DNA of 64,000 nt, taken from assembly GCA_950295325.1 (NCBI GenBank), contig OX485807.1, forward strand, positions 40,392,440 through 40,456,439. Direction: 5' to 3'. Made by a program: the position numbers and the translations under genes. Every line of letters begins with the position of its first letter. Position 1 is the stretch's first letter. Shown piece after piece: positions 1-64,000 of this stretch. This DNA comes from Polytrichum commune. Taxonomy: Eukaryota > Streptophyta > Polytrichopsida > Polytrichales > Polytrichaceae. Below the pieces are notes generated by a model. That model worked only from the letters and a program-made list of their open reading frames with translations. It ran no database searches and was not told the origin of the DNA.

Positions 1-1030
1 CCTTTGCTAGAAACGAAAATTGGCAAAATTGTTAGGGAGCTAGCAAGGGTTGCGACACTCTTGGATCAAAAGGGCAATGAATGAATACCGTTGGATTAAG
101 GGGTTTAGAAGAATGATATGTAAGTGAAGCCAACCATAAATGCTAATTGTTAGATTTAGGTACAACCAGATCTACGGGCGGTAGGCCATGTGGTTAAAAA
201 ATGGTGTTTGCGAAGGTTTGCGCTGGCCTTATTCTTACTATCTTTTTTCGGTTATGACACACTCTCTTTCTCCATCTCCATATAGTTAGCAATGGTCTTC
301 GTAACGTTTCATTTTGTAGAATGATAGTAAAATTAATGTTGAATAAAATAGTTTATAAATTCTATTAATGTTGATTAAAAGAGTTTGTAAATCATGTTGA
401 GGAATTGTTCTATGGATTTGTAGATGTTGGAATAAACTATTGTATAGATATGTGGTTACTAAAGTGAAGGCCACAATTGTTTGCCATTCAGGTTCCTCTG
501 ATTGTATTACTACTAATTGTAGTGATTTTGGTTGTAGTGTTGTTGGTTGCGGCGTTTGAGACTTAGAAACATGAGGTAGAAATATAGGTAGTGGTTAGAG
601 ATAGAATTAGTAGTTGGTGATGAAGTTAGTGGCTAAAGCTCTAGCTTTAGTCTTGATTGGAGTATTGGCTTGGAGGGTGGCAAAATGACATTCATCCAAA
701 TAACATTCTTTAAAAGGATGGTTTAATTCTCAATCCTTCCACTTCTCAACCAATCCAACCAAGGGTGGCTGGAGTAAAAATTGGTGGAAGTTAGGTACCT
801 AGAGCTAACCCCCACATTACGGTAGCAGATACTATGTATGATGGTTGAATTTTAGATGAAGTGAGAATGATTTAGGTTGGATGAAGATTTGTTTTCTAAG
901 GGATGAAATGGTGGACTTAAGATGGTTGCATGGATGAATAATGGTTGGATGAATGTGATGAAGTTGGATGATTGTAGGAGATAGAAGGTCATTGCTTAAA
1001 GGCACTAGAGTAGTCAATCCATCCGGCCAA
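1..1030. other. Unassigned AT-rich and GT-rich sequence
   Basis: No gene is recognised. From about 480 to 1000 the + strand is markedly G+T rich (many tgg, gtt and ttg triplets), a strand bias that returns at 14740-15720 and 58800-59180. The open frames here are short and resemble no family I know. Confidence 0.4.
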
Positions 1031-1126
1031 TCTTGTGGGTTGCTATTTTGATTGAAATAGCAATTGCCAGCACATAGTGTTTCTTATATAGCTTTATTAG
1101 AGATAATTTCAATTATTATTTGAGAG

Positions 1127-1954
1127 CAGGGTTGTCTATTGTGTCGTGATGGAGGCTAATCCCGACATAATGTCGTGGCGTCACGACACGTATCTGTCAC
1201 GACATTATGCTGGATGCTGTCTTTATCCTGACGAACTTGAATTTTACCGTATTTTTTTTGTGTAATTACATTACCCCAATCAGGACACGTAGGATTTACG
1301 ATGTCCACGTATGGTGCCATGTCAGCAAAGTAGAGGTAAAGTAGGAAAAAAATTACTAGCGCCCGTCCCCCCCCCCCCGTTCCCCCCGCTCCCTATGTTC
1401 CCCTCCCCCATCCGGCACCCCATCCGGCCCTCATCCGGCCTCCATCCGCCCCCCCCCACCCATCCGAACCCTCCCCCCTATCCGACCCGCCCCACCCCCC
1501 CCCCCATCCGAACCCGGCCCCCCTCCCCCCCCAATCCGAACCCCAATCTGGCCCCCATCCATACCCCATCCGGCCTCCATCCGGTACCCCATCCGGCCCC
1601 CATCCGGCGTTCCCCCCGTCCGCATCCGTTCCCGCCCCCGTTCCCGTCCCCGTCCGCTCCGTTCCCCTCCCCCCCACACCCTCATTTGTCATATTTTACT
1701 ACTTTGATTTAAACAGAATGATAAACACAAAGGCAAAATGATTTACATGGCAAGGGAAATATGCACATCCACGTTGGATTTTTCTGCCACATTGGATGCC
1801 ACCTTGGCAAGAAGGTAAGTATTTTACCCACCCTACTAGCTTCCCCCTAGTATGACCCTACGTGGACCCTATTATGTCGTGACGGAGGGGTCCGCCCCGA
1901 CACGACACGTCATGACGTCATGACGGTGGCAGGACGTCGCGATAGACAACCCTG
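1127..1954. mobile_element. Non-autonomous hAT-like element with 8-bp target duplication
   Basis: The ends are inverted: CAGGGTTGTCTATTG at the left and, on the opposite strand, CAGGGTTGTCTATCG at the right. Both flanks carry the identical 8-mer TTTGAGAG (1119-1126 and 1955-1962). CAGGG-type termini plus an 8-bp target duplication are diagnostic of the hAT superfamily. The 828-bp body has no transposase. It holds CpG-rich subterminal motifs such as GTCGTGA near both ends (1143-1205 and 1876-1942) and a long C-rich tract. The perfect target duplication suggests the insertion is younger than the LINE copy it interrupts. Confidence 0.85.
1366..1690. repeat. C-rich degenerate repeat (CCCATCCGG-type units) inside the hAT-like element
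   Basis: About 325 bases of nearly purine-free + strand built from varied copies of CCATCCGGCCCC. The minus strand is therefore a run of G3 to G13 tracts, many closely spaced, which is a dense G-quadruplex-forming pattern. The open frames on both strands here (Pro-rich one way, Gly-rich the other) are products of composition and are not genes. Confidence 0.85.
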
Positions 1955-2175
1955 TTTGAGAGTATAATATTATGGAGTCTCAAGTCTTCCTTTCAATTGA
2001 ACCATCAAGTTGATATTAGCCTCCAACTCACGGAGGCTACCGCACTCTGCCACTGTAGGACATTAGTTGGTTTGATAATATATCAATGTACTTTTAGCTT
2101 ATAAGCCTTCTAGCTTCCCGGACTTTAAAATCGATTTCATTTCATTCCCATTTAATGAGCTCAAGAATCTTCACT

Positions 2176-2930
2176 TTAATTATCTATAGGATGTTCATAC
2201 CAACTCCAAAATTCATGAAGTAAATGGCTATGGAAACGATTTGGAATTGGAAATCATGATTTATCTCACACTAATTATTTATCACATCTTACAAATATTC
2301 GTTAATTGGAGACTTTTTCATGATTTGGAGACTAATCAAGGACTTCAAGTCTAATATCGTGTTTAGTGCATGTTTTGATTATGATATAGATACTTATTAT
2401 ATTTAAAAATATATATACTCCTCATGCATGAATATGTAGAAAGTTCATTACCAATGTTCCCCACGTTCACAATATTGCATCCCAAACTATGAGGTAAGTT
2501 TATTTGGAGACTTTCCAAAGTCTCCAATTAGCGAATATAGTGATAAGAAGTGGATGCATAGCTAAATGTATCCATTTAAGGCCTATTTAACTTAATCAAG
2601 AGGGGTTCAATGAAGATCTGACCATGTTAAGATGTACGACTATGGATTTGAAAAGTTATCTATTCGTTACATTCTATAAGGACTCATGTTTGAAGCAATT
2701 AAATTAATGGTTAAGATTACCAGTTATTGATCAAATATGATGACCATTTTCATAAATTTATTGTGTCTTGATTATAAACCAATTACATATAGTTCAAAAT
2801 TAATTCATGATATATGTTTGAACAAGTGTCACAGATTGTGGAAAAATGGTGATATGTGACATAATTTGGGTACATCTTATTGTGGTTGGACCCGGAGCTA
2901 AGTGCTAAAAACCAACACCCTAAATTGTAC
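2176..2930. other. Unassigned AT-rich intergenic sequence
   Basis: No coding frame, RNA gene or terminal repeat could be supported here. Confidence 0.4.
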
Positions 2931-2984
2931 AATATAAGTGCAGATTGATGTCGAGAATGTCCACCACCTTAACATTAGGCTCCT

Positions 2985-3330
2985 ACTATGTTGGGTTTAG
3001 GTCATCTACTAATAAAATTTTGAACCCTTTAAATAACTTTAGCACACAAAATTCAAATAAGACATACTTTGGTGTTCTGGAATCCCCTTTCAATCGCTAG
3101 TGACAAATTTCTTCACTAATATGTGCAATTAAGTTGCCTCTTTACCCATAAATCTGCCTTGATTCAAAACCAAATCATAAACTTATTACTCCATTTAGTC
3201 ATTTGTTTAGTGACCACAATAGAGAAATAAAAACAATATCTTGTTACTATGGTTGTAAATACTCAAAATGAAGTGATCTGCTAATAAATTAATGTGGGGC
3301 AAACTAATCGTACACATCAATGTAGAACTT
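2985..3330 (+). repeat. Dispersed repeat family A, copy 1
   Basis: This stretch aligns, with many substitutions and small indels, to 4650-5010. Shared blocks in the same order include AAATAAGACAT, TTTGGTGT, ATATGTGCA followed by TTGCCTC, AACCAAATCATAAA, ACCACA, and TAATGTGGGG or TCATGTGGGG followed by CACATCAATGTAGA. I see no transposase and no clear ends, so the class is unknown. Confidence 0.6.
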
Positions 3331-4630
3331 TCTCATTCTAGTAGTAGTTTAAACACTCAATTGACGGTTTTAACTCCATCTACCTTAATTATGACATGTG
3401 CAATATTGTGGCATTAACTTACACTGTTGGCTTTAGGTCATCTTCCAATAAAGCTTGAGCCGTTGTCGTAATGTAAATGCGTACACTATATAGATGTGTA
3501 CTTATTTTGTGTTGCATTGTGATTCTTTGATTTGGAGGAAAGTAAAAGGGAATAGAAATATATTACCTTTTTGTTTACTCATAGTTTATTCTTAGTGACT
3601 TTTAGTTTATCCTTTTAATTTTAATTTTTTTAACTTTTAGTTTACTCTTAGCTTATCTCTTTTAGTCTTACTTCTAGTTTTATCCTTAGTTTATTTTTAG
3701 ACCAATGGATAATTAGAAGCCATGTGATGCGGATAAGAGGAGGATTTTTGGGCTTATCTCACATGTGTGGTTGGAGAGAAGACTCAGAGGGAGAGAAGAG
3801 GTTGGAAAGAGGAGAGTTTTTTTGTTGTTGTTGGAAGCTCATGGTGTGTGAGTGGATTTGACGAGAATCTTGAAATTAAAAAAATGCAGGAGTTGCGTTT
3901 CATGGTGTTGTTTTCTCGAGAGTGATCACTTGCTTGAATAGAAGTTAGCAAAAAAAAAAACAAAAGTTGTGCTAGTTTGAGTGGAGGGAGGTTTGTTGGC
4001 TCTTGCAAAGAAGAGTTGACTCAGACTTCGACTGACCATAGAAGACAGACAAGTCTTTTGTTTGCAACAAACCTTTGAGGAAGTGTATCACTTATCGTTA
4101 GTTTTTTTTTGTAAAGATATGATTCGATCAATTTGGTGTGCATGTGAAGATTTGAAGACTTGAAGAATTTCCTAGATTCAAGTGTATTGTGGCTTGTGGT
4201 TCGTTGTCATTTTTTTTTGTGATTCCCAGTCGGATTTGGAGGCTAGTTGTACTTGATTTTTTTTTGCATCATAAAATTGTTGCGGGTTTTTGTGGGAAAC
4301 CATAAGAGCCTCATTTCGTGTTTGTGACAACAAAGTGGGATTGATGACCCACAAGGGGGATTATATTCTGTTGTTTCCATTGGTGAGGCGCGATTGCTGG
4401 TCACCGTGGGTTTGAAAGTTTAGGAGCCAATCTGTCAGATGTCAACTCGTGTTCTAACGTCCCGTTTTACCCGTCCGAGGCCTGTGTTTTCTTATCACCC
4501 TACCCTTACCCTTAACCCGTTTAGAGCCGCAACAGGATAGGCCAACGTGAAAGAATTTAAAGTTTTGAAGAAACTGAAGACTGAGACTTTTGAAGACAAG
4601 AAGATTTGACGGTCCGGCAAGCAAATCTAG
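3331..4630. other. Unassigned intergenic sequence with T-rich tandem words
   Basis: At 3585-3700 the words TTAGTTTA and CTTTTAG recur in a loose tandem. The rest (3700-4630) has higher complexity but no frame that resembles a known protein. Confidence 0.35.
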
Positions 4631-7012: not shown

Positions 7013-7563
7013 AGGAACTCTGAGCCTGAGTCCCAGCTCCCTGGCTGAGGAAGAAGGCTAAAGCGAGAGGTTAAGGGCCACTTCATACATGATGGGAGGG
7101 CTGTGACTGTGTAATGGTGAGGGCCCTTGATTCTCATCCAAAGGCCGTACCGTGGGTGTTGGGATAGTCATTTTGTGTAGTCACGGGCCCTCAAGCATAG
7201 TGTGAAGTGAGAATGGACTCACTAGAGGGACCGTTGTATATTTTATTGGTGGAAAAAGAGGGGCAATCCTACTTCACTCGTTGTATATCTTCGTTCTCTC
7301 TCTTTCGCTTTGTTTTTGAGTTTTATATTGGTGAGGAAGTAAAGAAGAGCACGATTGTTCCATTGGCTTTATGTCGGTGTTTGCACATGATTGTGTAACA
7401 TGTGCTTGATATGCAAGCGTTGGCACTCAATGGAAATTGGGAGAATGCCTTGATTTTAGCATTGGCTTTGAAAGTATGAACATGAGCAATCGTAGTGTGT
7501 GGGCATTTTAGAGAAATGTAGGGTTCACCAACCGATTATTATTGAGTTTTTTTTACAAGAAAA

Positions 7564-8438
7564 ATGTTCAAGCAAAGAATTCGTGTATCTCATAATACAT
7601 TCAAGTTTCTTTATGAGAGGTTAGGTCCGTATTTGCAAGGGAAGAATACACGTATGAAAAAGACAAGTTTCAACTGAGAGTAGAGTTGCAATGTCATTAC
7701 AAAGGCTTGGACCTGGAAAATCGTTGTGTGCCGTAGGAGAGGTATGTGGGTGGCTAGAAGTACAATTTAAAAAATTATTGTAGATTGATAAGAATTCATT
7801 TACAACACACTTTCATGCAATTTCCAAATCCAACTTGATTTAGGGTTCTAGTATAACTTGTATAAGAACTTGAGGGACATCATAAAATCCCTCGTATTAT
7901 CGGAGCAATTGATGGATCTCATATTCAAATTCTTGCACTTGTAATTGGAAGAGAAGATTGTTATTGTCGAAAGTCATTTTACTTGGCTTAATTGCAATGT
8001 ATTATTGACACAAAATATGTATTTTGGAATTACAAAAATCTGATAGACAAAAAAATGTATGACTAGACATTATTTCAACTAACTAAAGTAAAAAAAACAT
8101 TACATAAAAGATGAATTCTTATCTTATAAGCTGATCATAGATTGTACATATCTAGTGCGGCCACGGATTTACAACGCATTTGAAGGTTGTGTAGAAGGTT
8201 TAGAAGGTTATAAAACCAATTATGATTTTAATCAAAGTTCTACTCGCATATGTATAAAACGTGCCTTGGGGATTGTAAAAGAGGGTGGAGAATTATTATG
8301 AGATTGGTTTTTGTTCCTTTAAAAAATATGAATGATATAGTATTTACATGTATTGTACTACATTATCTATGTAAAGTTAGTAAAGAGAAATTTGATAGAG
8401 AAAAAATAGAAAAAATTGCAAAAAAAAGGAGAGAATAA
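7564..8438 (+). pseudogene. Decayed PIF/Harbinger-type transposase
   Basis: PIF/Harbinger transposases cut and paste DNA with a DDE nuclease. Pieces of one are readable in order over several frames: RVSHNTFKFLYERLGPYLQ (7576-7640), RVAMSLQRLGPGKSLCAVGE (7680-7742), LEGHHKIPRIIGAIDGSHIQ (7870-7930), YCRKSFYLA then IIDTKYVFWN (7960-8035), and GWRIIMRLVFVPLKN followed by NDIVFTCIVLHYLC (8287-8370). The GAIDGSH block holds the family's first catalytic Asp. The VEHAFGRLKGRWRI block of intact members is degraded here to TCLGDCKRGWRI, so the catalytic Glu is not visible. Frameshifts and in-frame stops between blocks show the copy is dead. Terminal repeats were not found. Confidence 0.85.
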
Positions 8439-8449
8439 GTCGTTGTGAG

Positions 8450-10090
8450 AAGAATAAAAAGTAAGGGCTGAAATGACAGCTATAGGCAAAATAAGAGGTA
8501 TCATTAGTATTGAAAATATTCTAGAGACATGTAAGGAAATTAACAAAGCGATAAAAATATTTTGATGAGAAGAAGTGAAAAAGGTGAAGATTTATTTCTC
8601 AAGGCCACAAAAATGCATGAAGCAATAGCTAGATCATTATGGCAACTGAAGCTTAAAAAAAATCAAACATTGAATTTAGGATTTAAGTATTGATTCTAAT
8701 ATGAATAAGTGACTAACTACAATTTCTATACTAATGCTATCATATGAGCATCCATATTCTTGAATAAATTTATTATAAAAAATTAGAAAAATACTATTCA
8801 TTATGTGTTCCAAACATTCTTATGTCTTGTTTAATTTTCTTTATTTATTTTTGTGTTTTGTAGTTTCTGCAGGTTAACTCCCCACATGTGAATTTTGCTG
8901 TGTATCTTGAGTACCTTATTGCTCATCATTCTTTTAAACACTTGCTGACATTCAATTGACCACACTTGTATGTTGTTAATTCTAGAGATCTATCTACTTA
9001 TAATATTGATGTTCACGTCTTTCATATCTTCAAATTTTATTTGAAAATTTATGAATTTTTTACTTAATTAGAATTATCTTATATTTCTTCTTCCAAGCTA
9101 GCCAAGTCTTTCCGAAATTACTCAAACTTAAAATTATATGAGCATGAAGCTTAATCCAAACATTGAATCATGCCTAGATAAAACAGTGAAAATAAAATTA
9201 GACTAATATTGGACAAAAAATAATATGTTTATAACTCTACCAACTTAATAGAAAATACTTGGTGTTTTAAGTCGTTATAAAGTTGTTGGCCTAGAGCCGT
9301 GATGTTACGAGTTTGTGTTCCCACTTGTGCACGGAGCATTAAGTGTATAATGGCCCAATTTGAATATGACCTTATGTATTTTTTTACATTTATATCTCAA
9401 CAAACTATTTTATGTTTTTTTTGCTGTGTTTTACAAAAAAAAATCATTTTATTGTGGATCGCAATGAGGGTTTCAATATCATAATCTCGACATCTATTAT
9501 AAACCTCATCTTTATTAAATTGTCCAATTCAATTGCCTCACTCTCTGTCTTTTTTTTGGGTGCTCCTTTCAGTTTTGAAATTAATGCTCTACCTTTTTTC
9601 TTCTTAACATGGTTTTTTTTGTAACTAATTTTTTCCATCTTTTCTCCCATGGTCACATCTCTACTACATTTGACATTTAGTAGCATTTGCAATGTAATTA
9701 TTTTTAATTTTGTATTATGAAACAATTGTAAATTGTATAAATTCCTACTTGGCAATGAGGGTCCATGCAATCCAAATTATGGTTGATTCCATATCATCCA
9801 AGGAGAATTTTGGTTCCATTGTTGGGTTTTGAAACCACTACTATCTTACCAGAGACTTGCCATTGAGGACTAACACATATTAAAATTTTATCAGTACAAA
9901 AATTATCTACTAAAAGGTACACACATACTAGCAAGTTCCAAAAACTCGGAGTTGTGTCAGTTGAGAGAGATGACCCTCTGTCATGTCTTTAATTATATGT
10001 CTTAGAAAAGATAGTGTCGGACAAAAATATTAGAATAACCCTAGCAACCAATGACAACTGCTTGGCTATTATGAACTACTGGAATTTGTG
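8450..10090. other. Unassigned AT-rich sequence downstream of the Harbinger remnant
   Basis: Possibly the 3' part of the decayed element. Open frames at 9299-9624 are hydrophobic and T-rich, and I do not think they encode a protein. Confidence 0.35.
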
Positions 10091-60159: not shown

Positions 60160-60980
60160 TTAATTTGTGCAACATAGATTTAAGCTGGAAACACTATATT
60201 CGTTAAATTGAGACTTTCTCTAGTCTCAAATTAATATATGGATCAAACAACATTCCGTGTTCCGAAACTATATTGCGAACAATCTCAAATATATTATATG
60301 TTCTAATATCCCAAATCTATTATGTGTGGACATAAGCACATATGGTAGAGCACTCAACACCAACTTCATCAACAAAAACACTTTGGGTAGAGCACTCCAA
60401 ACTAGTTTCACCCAAGAAACATATAAAATGATTTCTATTATTAGCATGGTCAATAAAATATAGACATTGCAACATACAAAGTGCATGCAATAAATGCATA
60501 TTTCTTCAATGGAAAATTTAGTCCCAAACTTAATAAAAAAATGAACTTCACAATTGTATTGAAATATAGTAAATGGATATTCATCCAACCCCAAACAATA
60601 TAGCATTCGCAAGTTCTACCCAAACTTTGCCCCAAGTTTGAGGAGCACACATATGAGTAATATATATTCGTCGAATTACTGTTTACACTATAATCATGCT
60701 AACACAATCCTACCAACTTCTCATTCAACGTGGGTTGCTTCTTCTGCGATCCGAGCAAGGTTGTCTTTTGCAAAAGTTATGTACTTTTGAGGGATGGACA
60801 CTGATCCACTATGATTTTTCCGTGGTTTCCATGCTATGAATATGGAATCTGTATCTACCCAAGATGGACCGTGCTCAGAATCCACCTTCCACCAAAAGTG
60901 TTGGTTTGTATCCCAGCCTGTATAATGCCGAACAACATCTTCATTCCGTGCTGTCGGTCGGTAGTACTCTACTTGTATTT
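60160..60980. other. 3' flank of the DUF7869-like gene
   Basis: A 48-bp imperfect tandem pair occurs at 60337-60415 (GGTAGAGCACTCAACACCAA against GGTAGAGCACTCCAAACTAG). No terminal repeat of the downstream gene was recognised. Confidence 0.4.
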
Positions 60981-60981
60981 G

Positions 60982-63802
60982 TCAAAAATGAGGGCTGGAA
61001 GATACAAAATTTGGATTGGACAAAGCTCTTGCCACCCACAATGGCTTTGCATATGTCTCATCTCCAGGACGCAAAATGAGCATATAACCTTCATGACAAT
61101 CCACTGCAATGCGGAAAGATGGTGGGGGATGTTGACTAGCAGGCCCAACGTAATGGTCGTCCATATCAAACTCCTCACGAACCTCTCCATTACTCAAAAG
61201 ACTAGCCTCCGAAGCTTGTACATCGATACGAGTTTGTGGCCAAAATCCGTGCCTCAAAGTATGAGGGCTATCTTGGTGGAGGTCTGCCAAGGCCGCACGA
61301 ACACGTGTCCAATAATGTATCCAACTCCCATAACGATGCCAACATGATCCGCCAACATCCGCTATCTTCAAACTCTCCCAATATTGAATGAAGCCTGATA
61401 TACCTTTCAAAATATCCTCCAAATTCTTCATGGCTATTGGCTTGCAAGGCCTAGGCTCTCCATCCGGTAACATGGTCTTCCCATCCGCATCCACGCACCA
61501 CATAAGGAGACCCTCTGGCGGGCTCCAGTCTTGTGTCGTGCACAACAACTTGTATTGCATGGCCGGGACACCATCGTCACGCATGTAGAACCGGAATTGT
61601 TGTGCCTTCGTATGGCCAATCAATCGATGAGCTCCACTTCGAATATAAGGTTCTATAAATGCCTTGAAGTCTGGCACCTCCTCAATCATATGGGGGATGA
61701 CGGGAACGTTCTCCAAATCCATGTACGACTTCATCAATAACGGGATTGTAGGAAAATCCTCCTCCCGCAACTTCATGCTCCACCGTCCAAAAGATGCATC
61801 AATATCGTCGTGCGTGTGGCCTACCAATAGGAAGGACACAAAAACCTCCTTGAAAATGCCTTTCGCAACCAACAACGACCAATATGCAAATACATATCTA
61901 CTTTTATTGTCCTTGGCACAATTGTCCAATTGGACACGCAAAGTGGGGGACAACTTCTTGGCTATCACGGGTTCACTGGGTGGTGTGGACAACGAATGCA
62001 AGCATACATCTTTTCCATCCATCACTGCTTCATATAAAGGTGTTGAACTCGTATTTTCAAATAACAATCCTGAAGAATAGGCTGGCGGTTTCTCTAAATC
62101 ACGCAAAAGCCTTGCAAATGACCCTATCGTGTGGTTTGAATCTGCTGGATACAAATCAAGAGCATAATGGGCAAACTTGACATCACCGTGTCCATGTGCA
62201 ATCATTCCTACAATGCCAACCCAAAGTGATTAGTATCTATGTATGTCTAAATCGTTTTGAGTGAATCAATGTTCTCAAGTACATCACATAATAAAATACA
62301 ACAATATTTAGGGTATGTCAACATTGTTTCGAAGATCACCTGTAACCGATACATGCAACTTAAAAAACCCATCCGTGGCCTTGATTCGTTTTGCAAAACA
62401 TGGGGAGGCTGTCTTGGCATGGTCCATTTTGTCATGGATGACCGTAAGAACTTCCAAGGGCCTGGAGATGGACAACGCTCTATTTGTGTAGTAATCATTA
62501 CGGTGTGCCTCTTGCATGTTTACGTGCTTGAAATAGTTCAATTGATGCACCGCAAACGACTCGGTACCCATCGTGTGTGCATCCCGAAGGCGCTTCAACT
62601 TCTCGCAATTAGAGCACCTTGCAAATTTGTCCCCTCGTTTTTTTGTAATATTCGCTGAAGTTTGCTTTCTTGATTGCACTCAATTTTGACGATGAAATTG
62701 GCTCCAACCCAATCTTCTCCCCAACTGCATTTACATCCAACAATATGTCTTTCCATTTTGTGCCTGTGGGAAGAACTTTCTCCACAACCTTTTCACCAGT
62801 TGTGAGTGTGCGTGTTTTGTGCGGCATTGCATCGGCAAGTAGGACAATTATGGTTGCTAGAGTGGCCGTTGCTTGCCTTGTTGCTTCCCTAGGTTTCTTT
62901 AAACCCACGTTCCCATGGTGACGGGACCGGCAGCCTTCCTTGGCATAAGCAGCTTGTCTATAAAAATCCGCTTTCGACACACCATGAATGGTGTACCATG
63001 CCTTGCAACACACGTCTATGCTCTCAATGGTGATGACCTTGCGACCCGCCCCATTCACATGTATCGCCCTATGCACATCAAGTTTTTTGGTGGATCTTAG
63101 ACGGAAATCACCAAGCCACATTTCTTCGCGGATGGCCAATAATTTATCCTGGGGAAACAATTGGCAACAACGATGCACACAACAATCCTTTGTGGCAACT
63201 TCTCTAATGGACTCCTCCCCGAGCAACCTTTGACGTTTACAATCAGTTGCAGACGGAGCAGGACGTGCCAATGTATCGTACTTTCTTTGACCCTTGCGTG
63301 GCCGCATGTTTGATTGCTGCTCTTTTTGGATTTGCAAGTGTCGTTGCTCATGTTCACACAAACTAACTCCATCAATCGTGACATTCCTCAATGGCCACCT
63401 CCGGAGGGAGAACCTATGAGTGGGATCCACCTCGGAATGAACGAGCGACTCCAATATGACAACCCCAACGTCCTCGGTGCCAAGCGGGTTTTCATCAATG
63501 CAATCTTGTGGATGGGTGTTGCGACAAATCCCCTCCGCCACAACAACTCCACTGTCATTAAGAAGTACCACCTCCAAATTCACCCATGAAGCCCTTGAGA
63601 GTCCCGTACATTCAGCAATGGGACATTGCGGTACGGAAGGCGAAGGTAAATCCAAATGATCTTCATCTGCACTGTCAGCCAAAGTATCCTCCCCGACAAT
63701 GTCTATCTCATCCTCAGATGCAGATGGCCAAGTGGCCATATCTTCAGATGACCAATCCCCTCTTTCACTAAACCCATTCATTCTACCTACACACATGAAC
63801 AT
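60982..63802 (-). CDS. Large DUF7869-like, transposase-like protein gene (one intron, one frameshift)
   Basis: Exon A is 63802-62340 and exon B 62207-60982 (minus). The 132-bp intron begins GTGATC and ends TTGTAG, and the exons join as GTTACAG|GAATG (VTG-MIAHGHG). The summed length is 3n+1, and frames change once, at a 7-A run near 62636-62642, so one extra base breaks an otherwise complete frame of about 895 aa. The N-terminal third is acidic. The middle has a Cys-rich block (RCSNCEKLKRLRD) and VIHDKMDHAKTASPCF. The C-terminus has VQLDNCAKDNKSRYVFAYW and FLLVGHTHDDIDASF, the hallmarks of DUF7869 proteins. The Asp-rich blocks could form an RNase-H-like triad (inference). Start ATG is at 63802 or 63781. 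It may be a transposon gene or a retained host gene; its biochemical role is unknown to me. Confidence 0.8.
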
Positions 63803-63860
63803 TGAACCTTATCAAGAAACCACAAAAATTGTAGGTTCCAATCGAATAATACAAAAACCA

Positions 63861-63872
63861 TCTTATATAAAC
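63861..63872 (-). promoter_or_regulatory. Putative TATA box of the DUF7869-like gene
   Basis: The minus strand reads TTTATATAAGA about 60 bases upstream of the first ATG. Good match, but AT-rich context. Confidence 0.4.
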
Positions 63873-63969
63873 AATATTGCAAATACACAGTGTTCATACA
63901 TGTTCATATGAATGCTATGCCATTGGCTTTGTAAAGGTTTGGGTTGGCCAGTGGACACACTATCATTTA

Positions 63970-64000
63970 GAGCCCATCCACACGGTGGGTTTGGGTTTGG
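63970..64000. mobile_element. Possible Tourist-like MITE start, cut by the window edge
   Basis: TTA (63967-63969) is followed by GAGCCCATCCACACGG, resembling the GAGCATCC and GGGCATCTCC starts of the other TTA-flanked elements. The other end lies outside the window. Confidence 0.3.

Follow-up and report, generated by a model that had tools for sequence, protein, structure and literature searches.

The DUF7869 gene and its copies

The window, by which we mean the whole 64,000-nt stretch of the Polytrichum commune genome analysed here, contains two long minus-strand open reading frames of 415 aa (60982–62229) and 399 aa (62609–63808). A sequence-only reading had already pointed out these frames and assigned them to DUF7869, correctly in both respects: the Pfam profile PF25273 matched with 145.1 bits (E = 2.5e-42), above its curated cut-off of 26 bits, with the best stretch at 61537–61962 on the same strand. 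We aligned the window copy with seven relatives from the first nine own-genome loci (eight copies; locus L002, which holds two partial copies, was left out). On the minus strand, the gene consists of exon 1 with its ATG at 63802 (62340–63802), a 132-bp GT...AG intron (62208–62339) and exon 2, which as read in the relatives ends at the family stop 60723–60721 (60721–62207). The correctly phased intron at 62340/62207 that had been proposed was thus present, and its borders were kept in 8/8 copies, with a length of 132 or 134 bp.

The same reading had described a gene of 895 codons broken only by a frame discrepancy in a run of seven A, and here the alignment gave a different picture. Exon 1 is 1463 bp long in the window copy and 1465 bp in 7/7 relatives. 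The two-base deficit lies at approximately 62649–62651 (minus strand), upstream of the A-run by a few bases; the length of the run is the same in the window copy and the seven relatives. Since the deficit falls outside the run, it argues against a homopolymer sequencing error as well as programmed frameshifting, both of which had been offered as options and are contradicted. Furthermore, a second lesion was found, a premature stop at 60982–60984 (minus strand) that is a sense codon in all seven relatives and differs from them by a C-to-T change in a CpG. The 895 codons turned out to be a truncated length, as the family frame runs on to 60721 and the uninterrupted spliced protein, present in 4/8 copies, comprises 983 aa. 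Because of its frameshift and premature stop the window copy is dead, but full-length; the family is not dead, because half of the aligned copies encode the uninterrupted protein. The two remaining options, a recent transposon and a young pseudogene, therefore both hold, the former for the family and the latter for the window copy.

A search with the exon 2 protein in the moss's own genome (408 Mb, 64 contigs) returned at least 101 scored matches with 94–100% identity, the window copy included, most of them with a 502-aa open frame. So many matches at this level of protein identity exclude chance, and the proposed search for other copies was thereby answered. Of 1,491 candidates, 150 were scored with the DUF7869 profile, and all 150 matched. 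Near-identical copies exist as well, with 99.55% and 99.85% identity over more than 4 kb. No viral relatives could be confirmed in viral contigs, where 66 stretches fitted a pattern and none encoded a relative, and DUF7869 was not mentioned in the literature searched.

A giant transposon with inverted repeats and 4-bp target duplications

The DUF7869 gene lies close to one end of a much larger element. Right ends of the copies in the first nine loci (10/10) stop at the same base, after which ten different sequences follow. In the window, this base is 60190, where a 28-bp terminal inverted repeat (TIR) begins (60190–60217, minus strand). It agrees with the left TIR of the same element at 27/28 positions, and the two TIRs are identical (28/28) in two other copies. 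Next to it, positions 60186–60189 (minus strand) form the right side of a 4-bp target duplication, with the identical 4 bp at the far left end. The left TIR of the window copy was located at position 7439 of the joined stretch. The whole element thus measures 19,734 bp, from 60190 to about 79923 (C5:40472362), and extends beyond the window edge; about 3.8 kb of it, the right end, are inside the window (60190–64000, minus strand). Walking upstream in four copies, we found the left TIR in three of them (W, D and F), 16.0 to 19.7 kb away, and all three showed exact 4-bp duplications; the left end of copy C was not found within the stretch fetched. An early alignment had suggested 5′-truncated copies, an idea that was dropped when upstream walking showed a far larger element.

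Globally, the first 22 bases of the TIR (≤1 mismatch) had 402 genomic matches on one strand and 417 on the other, compared with 0 matches for the reversed control, and the element is one of hundreds in this genome. Among the matches listed, 20 plus/minus neighbour end pairs 3–25 kb apart were evaluated, all on contig C1 (one further eligible pair near 21.31 Mb, situated among other ends, was left out). Exact 4-bp duplications flanked 20/20 of these pairs and 5-bp duplications none, whereas wrongly paired ends gave 4/380. The targets are AT-rich (61/80 duplicated bases), and the next base beyond the duplication is C or G in 16/20 cases on each side. Element length had a median of 16.9 kb (n = 20 pairs), with most copies measuring 14–25 kb; two of the 20 are short (3.6 and 4.8 kb) and presumably non-autonomous. 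TIRs together with target duplications of fixed length in many copies are what defines a TIR DNA transposon, and the locus is the right end of a giant one. The prediction that it was the best candidate for an undescribed mobile system, and the suggestion to align flanks for terminal repeats and target duplications, were both borne out by these 28-bp TIRs and exact 4-bp duplications.

Some copies showed more complex surroundings. At L002 (C6:9690000–9699000) and L057, the end of one window-family element falls within the DUF7869 gene of a second copy. We considered the nested insertion at L002 as proof of an empty site and rejected it, since the sequences on either side of the inserted element differ and give no target duplication; the arrangement at the two loci is probably a rearrangement. 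In addition, an inverted repeat with arms of about 980 bp lies upstream of one copy (L011, about 799–1775 and 3215–4188), and the same repeat adjoins another copy, downstream of its element (L007, about 7180–9001).

Three further DUF7869 families were recognised. The 543 family has a 66% identical DUF7869 and a TIR whose first 17 bases are common with the window family (174 + 178 genomic matches, control 0). The 692 family gave tblastn segments with 36–49% identity to the window family; its TIR is a different one (45 + 44 matches, control 0), and the copy that was read spans 25.2 kb. Exact 4-bp duplications were present for 10/10 end pairs selected from among the matches listed, compared with 0/90 mismatched pairs, and the preference for C or G beside the target was absent (3/10 and 4/10). 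For SDIV, the fourth and distant family, ends were looked for and not found. A single relative (L072, positions 1–4327) was found outside the moss genome. Its frame of 963 codons has no intron and lies on a contig of 4.3 kb (CADCWO010000071.1) filed under the cyanobacterial metagenome-assembled genome AVDCRST_MAG81. The other contigs of that assembly gave no DUF7869 match. L072 resembles a fragment of a eukaryotic DUF7869 transposon and is probably a eukaryotic stray, present through contamination.

What the DUF7869 protein may do is suggested by several lines of evidence. It lies inside TIR-bounded elements of three families, with the ends and target duplications described above, it is intact in half of the aligned copies and it carries acidic motifs in a set order (IHDKMD, QLDN, GHTHDDID). 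We therefore regard it as a putative transposase, a plausible function for a Pfam family of unknown function. Its candidate catalytic residues would be the Asp of IHDKMD (62431–62433; IIDGMD in the distant family), that of QLDN (61924–61926; kept in 9/10 aligned rows, Ser in one) and the last Asp of GHTHDDID (61798–61800; invariant in 10/10 aligned rows), all on the minus strand. Merlin-type transposases have a comparable HT..IE motif. A PDB search with DUF7869 yielded no credible match, and the two AlphaFold models made with an RNase-H fold in mind had mean pLDDT values of 40.6 and 41.8, too low for use.

Gene B and family-private palindromes

Elements of the window, 543 and 692 families are all arranged as left TIR, phosphatase, gene B, palindrome arrays, DUF7869 and right TIR. 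The phosphatase and the multi-exon gene B lie on one strand and DUF7869 on the opposite one; exons of gene B were drawn from open frames only. The phosphatase is NLI/FCP1-like (PF03031, 56 bits in the window family). Phosphatases of this type usually have a DxD motif in which a second Asp is expected, and we observed Asn at this position in 3/3 families (L012 1119–1961 and its counterparts L102 and L104). When the window family was compared by tblastn with 543 and 692, phosphatase identity was 41 and 31% and gene B identity 23–48 and 22%, against the 66 and 36–49% given above for DUF7869. Gene B is thus on the whole the least conserved gene; in 692, tblastn detected its middle part alone, and the first part was located through a motif.

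Internal stops were absent from the first exon of gene B in 41/87 scored copies and from the phosphatase in 112/138, as counted from the listings; in the window copy, this exon aligns only in two frames. The dN/dS calculation that had been proposed gave a within-family value of 0.16 for DUF7869, alongside 0.21 for the phosphatase and 0.10 and 0.05 for two exons of gene B, with pairs that were not all made of the same two copies. The genes of the element are under purifying selection. The corresponding dS values were 0.15, 0.10, and 0.42 and 0.80. This spread between genes (0.10 to 0.80) suggests recombination between subfamilies and a mosaic element, which in turn weakens simple arguments from co-evolution. 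The differences were seen with the window-family copies W, C and D and with L003 and L008, as if modules had been exchanged between elements.

No credible match to gene B was found in the PDB, nor in Pfam, NCBIfam or PHROG for the frames scanned, and no helix-turn-helix was identified in its protein. A methyltransferase domain, considered by eye because of a glycine-rich stretch, received no support from the same three profile collections in the frames scanned, which might miss a divergent domain. By eye, we also noticed a [DN]GQH motif after a hydrophobic strand in gene B of four families, reminiscent of DGQHR proteins. We compared B by hhalign with a DGQHR set (8 proteins of the 12 loci found, after four near-duplicates were dropped) and a ParB_N set (6 of the 15 loci found). 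B matched the former with P = 6.7e-6 (probability 84.7, 88 aligned columns) and, weakly, the latter with P = 0.0085 (78 aligned columns). None of 199 column shuffles reached B's DGQHR or ParB_N score (200 were run, one without a result). Reversed B gave P = 0.63 and 0.70, and DUF7869 as a control P = 0.12 and 0.24, for the DGQHR and ParB_N sets, respectively. The DGQHR signal persisted when the window family and its near relative were left out (P = 4.5e-6) or when SDIV was omitted (P = 1.5e-5), and was weaker without 692 (P = 5.4e-4). The DGQHR and ParB sets themselves matched each other at P = 0.0045 only, which places B about as close to ParB as DGQHR is. In terms of profile similarity, gene B thus has a remote DGQHR/ParB-type domain. 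For SDIV, gene B was assigned visually on the basis of a single short open reading frame, and its GQH motif does not fall in line with the others in the alignment, so that its membership rests on visual inspection. A further, more diverged gene B with an internal stop, belonging to another element, was seen beside copy F (L016 1601–3941), with window-type palindromes nearby.

Each of the four DUF7869 families and L072 carries arrays of its own palindrome of 20–23 bp. That of the window family, GTTTGGGTCGNNCGACCCAAAC, occurs at 28, 37 and 32 sites in copies W, D and F, and the same counts were obtained at ≤2 mismatches; the others are TTACGGACG.. in 543, CCACGGGTG.. in 692, GGTGAGGCA.. in SDIV and GTTTAGCTCGANTCGAGCTAAAC in L072. 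A matrix of families against palindromes (≤2 mismatches) was strictly diagonal, with 28/37/32 for W/D/F followed by 22, 21, 51 and 3, and 0 in all off-diagonal cells, the other 60 kb of the window included. L072 is the weakest case, with three strong and several degenerate sites; its seven palindrome hits (three sites in two registers plus one other) compare with a mean of 2.1 in 30 randomised sequences. Family-private palindromes of this sort were not described in the papers covered by a limited literature search.

In copy D, the arrays have periods of 36, 57, 78 and 158 with spacers that look unrelated. Each of the 20 arm positions is kept in 34–37 of the 37 sites, and the two centre bases vary. 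Only 3/37 sites are in coding DNA, which makes up 8,015 of 16,439 bp with the exons as drawn. For the 78-bp array with the palindromes excluded, the CpG observed/expected ratio is 0.03. In the window, 543 and 692 families alike, sites are placed upstream of DUF7869, upstream of B and between the frames of B.

Genome-wide, the window-family palindrome has 9,231 exact sites and that of 543 has 1,310, with 0 in the control for each (the reversed palindrome, in the window family). Among the first 100 window-family sites listed, 61 lay between two pairs of listed TIR ends, 16 next to an end without a partner and 23 away from all listed ends. Outside the element, the flanks of copy F contain three window-type sites with a loose match, next to the diverged gene B of another element. 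The palindrome is accordingly not confined to elements with the exact TIR. Within the same 100 sites, clusters near no listed TIR were observed at C1:438279–478028 (13 exact) and C1:2154319–2159887 (10 exact), which may be diverged or related elements.

Possible functions and related systems

How might these parts work together? In the account that we favour, the locus belongs to a giant cut-and-paste element in which DUF7869 would recognise the 28-bp TIRs and make 4-bp staggered target cuts. The protein of the opposite-strand gene B would bind the family-private palindromes, which lie upstream of both transcription units and in introns, and thereby regulate expression of the element itself, most probably as an activator or as an anti-silencing factor comparable to VANC in VANDAL elements. 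The NLI/FCP1-like phosphatase would be a constant passenger or helper. Taken as a whole, a DUF7869 transposase combined with a B protein that binds private palindromes for self-control appears to us rather likely, and the palindromes probably serve each family as switch sites for its own control. Recognition by B is favoured because no palindrome is common to the window and 543 families, whose TIRs agree in part and whose transposases are similar, and because B belongs to a fold whose best-known member, ParB, acts at palindromic sites, the parS sites being palindromes themselves. Binding of the palindromes by a ParB-like protein and an anti-silencing outcome are both inferred, as is the catalytic role of DUF7869; the layout of the sites matches that reported for VANC targets, which makes control of silencing the first guess for the outcome. 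A bolder version, which we put forward tentatively and would not yet bet on, is that a ParB/DGQHR-type protein, possibly a nucleotide-dependent clamp, protects none but its own family's copies from silencing and finds them by a palindromic address that changes rapidly. Such a system would be a eukaryotic counterpart of ParB–parS, convergent with VANC through an unrelated protein.

The palindromes could instead be bound by the DUF7869 transposase, as internal enhancers or subterminal-type sites that help to join ends 16–25 kb apart. In favour of this, repeated internal motifs are often bound by the transposases of large elements. DUF7869 is also the gene that L072, again with private palindromes, has in common with the moss families, and in the 692 family a few sites lie within 0.25–0.6 kb of the ends or, at ≤3 mismatches, as close as about 0.24 kb on the left and 0.23 kb on the right. 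All 37 sites of copy D, however, are at least 2.8 kb from its left and at least 3.8 kb from its right end, and the window and 543 families, although the first 17 bases of their TIRs agree and their DUF7869 proteins are 66% identical, have no palindrome in common; we therefore find binding by the transposase rather unlikely. Another variant takes the ParB-like protein to be a true NTP-dependent clamp that is loaded at the palindromes, as at parS, and spreads for end synapsis, partition or repression of the element's own genes. The DGQHR/ParB profile similarity and the presence of palindromic sites in many copies would fit, as would the descriptions of ParB-type proteins as CTP-dependent clamps that are loaded onto DNA and slide along it and of a DndB-like protein that binds ATP and GTP (PMC12704722). 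Given the weak match to canonical ParB_N (P = 0.0085), we consider a clamp of this sort improbable.

Two simpler views deny the palindromes, or the element, any particular role. Tandem arrays expand and contract, and 28, 37 and 32 copies in three elements could reflect neutral minisatellites spread by slippage. Against this, the same arms recur across the four periods of copy D with unrelated-looking spacers and only the two centre bases varying, and each of the four families has a different palindrome in the equivalent positions, so that we attach very little weight to a neutral origin. One might also suspect plain debris of a decayed transposon from a known family and nothing more, given the broken DUF7869 gene of the window copy and its ParB-like exon 1, which aligns only in two frames. 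This view is already contradicted by the intact 983-aa protein in 4/8 copies, the 99.55% and 99.85% identical copies over more than 4 kb and the purifying selection, and it is scarcely credible. The private palindromes amount to a putative DNA-recognition code re-written between related transposon families within a single genome.

Among known proteins, gene B resembles the prokaryotic DGQHR/DndB and ParB-fold proteins (TIGR03187, PF02195) in its [DN]GQH motif and the surrounding profile. It differs from them in having no Pfam-level match, in being part of a eukaryotic transposon and in aligning over 88 and 78 columns only. A survey of the ParB fold includes eukaryotes, where sulfiredoxin is described as the commonest representative (PMC12704722). 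Also relevant are the ParB + methyltransferase proteins of algal transposons (Iyer 2011; Petroll 2025), which are cited as similar in PMC12477816 and, according to that paper, likewise place a ParB-like domain in eukaryotic transposons. The paper describes Sola1-1_Ec32 of Ectocarpus, a Sola-1 element of 21.5 kb in which a gene with ParB-like and methyltransferase domains lies on the strand opposite the transposase (PMC12477816). The moss element is alike in its giant size and in a gene with remote ParB similarity on the strand opposite the transposase. In contrast, the accessory protein of Sola1-1_Ec32 also has a DNA methyltransferase domain, while none was recognised in moss gene B, and the parts of the paper available to us mention no palindrome array or phosphatase gene. 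Sola2 elements have AT-rich 4-bp target duplications and an 888-aa transposase (PMC3627910); the duplication length agrees with that of the moss element, a feature not unique to Sola. Sola is therefore our best guess for the superfamily, on account of the ParB-like gene opposite the transposase in Sola-1 and the AT-rich 4-bp duplications of Sola2, and the moss element is probably a Sola-type giant transposon, likened to that group on the basis of published descriptions.

VANDALs are Mutator-like, and VANC is not known to be related to ParB. The moss element has a DUF7869 transposase and 4-bp duplications, and no MULE- or VANC-type Pfam match was present in the frames scanned, which sets it apart from VANDALs. 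What the two have in common are family-private motif arrays in noncoding parts. VANC targets are reported as arrays of motifs in introns and upstream regions (PMC5735166), and VANDAL21 and VANDAL6 have family-specific short tandem motifs, the private targets of an element-encoded protein, which diverged rapidly between related elements (PMC5735166, PMC10398659, in the parts available). The string 'palindrom' is absent from the main text of PMC5735166, whereas the moss sites are palindromes of 20–23 bp, with a free centre in the window family. If gene B reads these palindromes, the moss families would offer ready-made orthogonal protein–palindrome pairs for studying how specificity evolves, and they would represent a second, unrelated solution to the problem that VANC solves, namely a self-specific escape from silencing.
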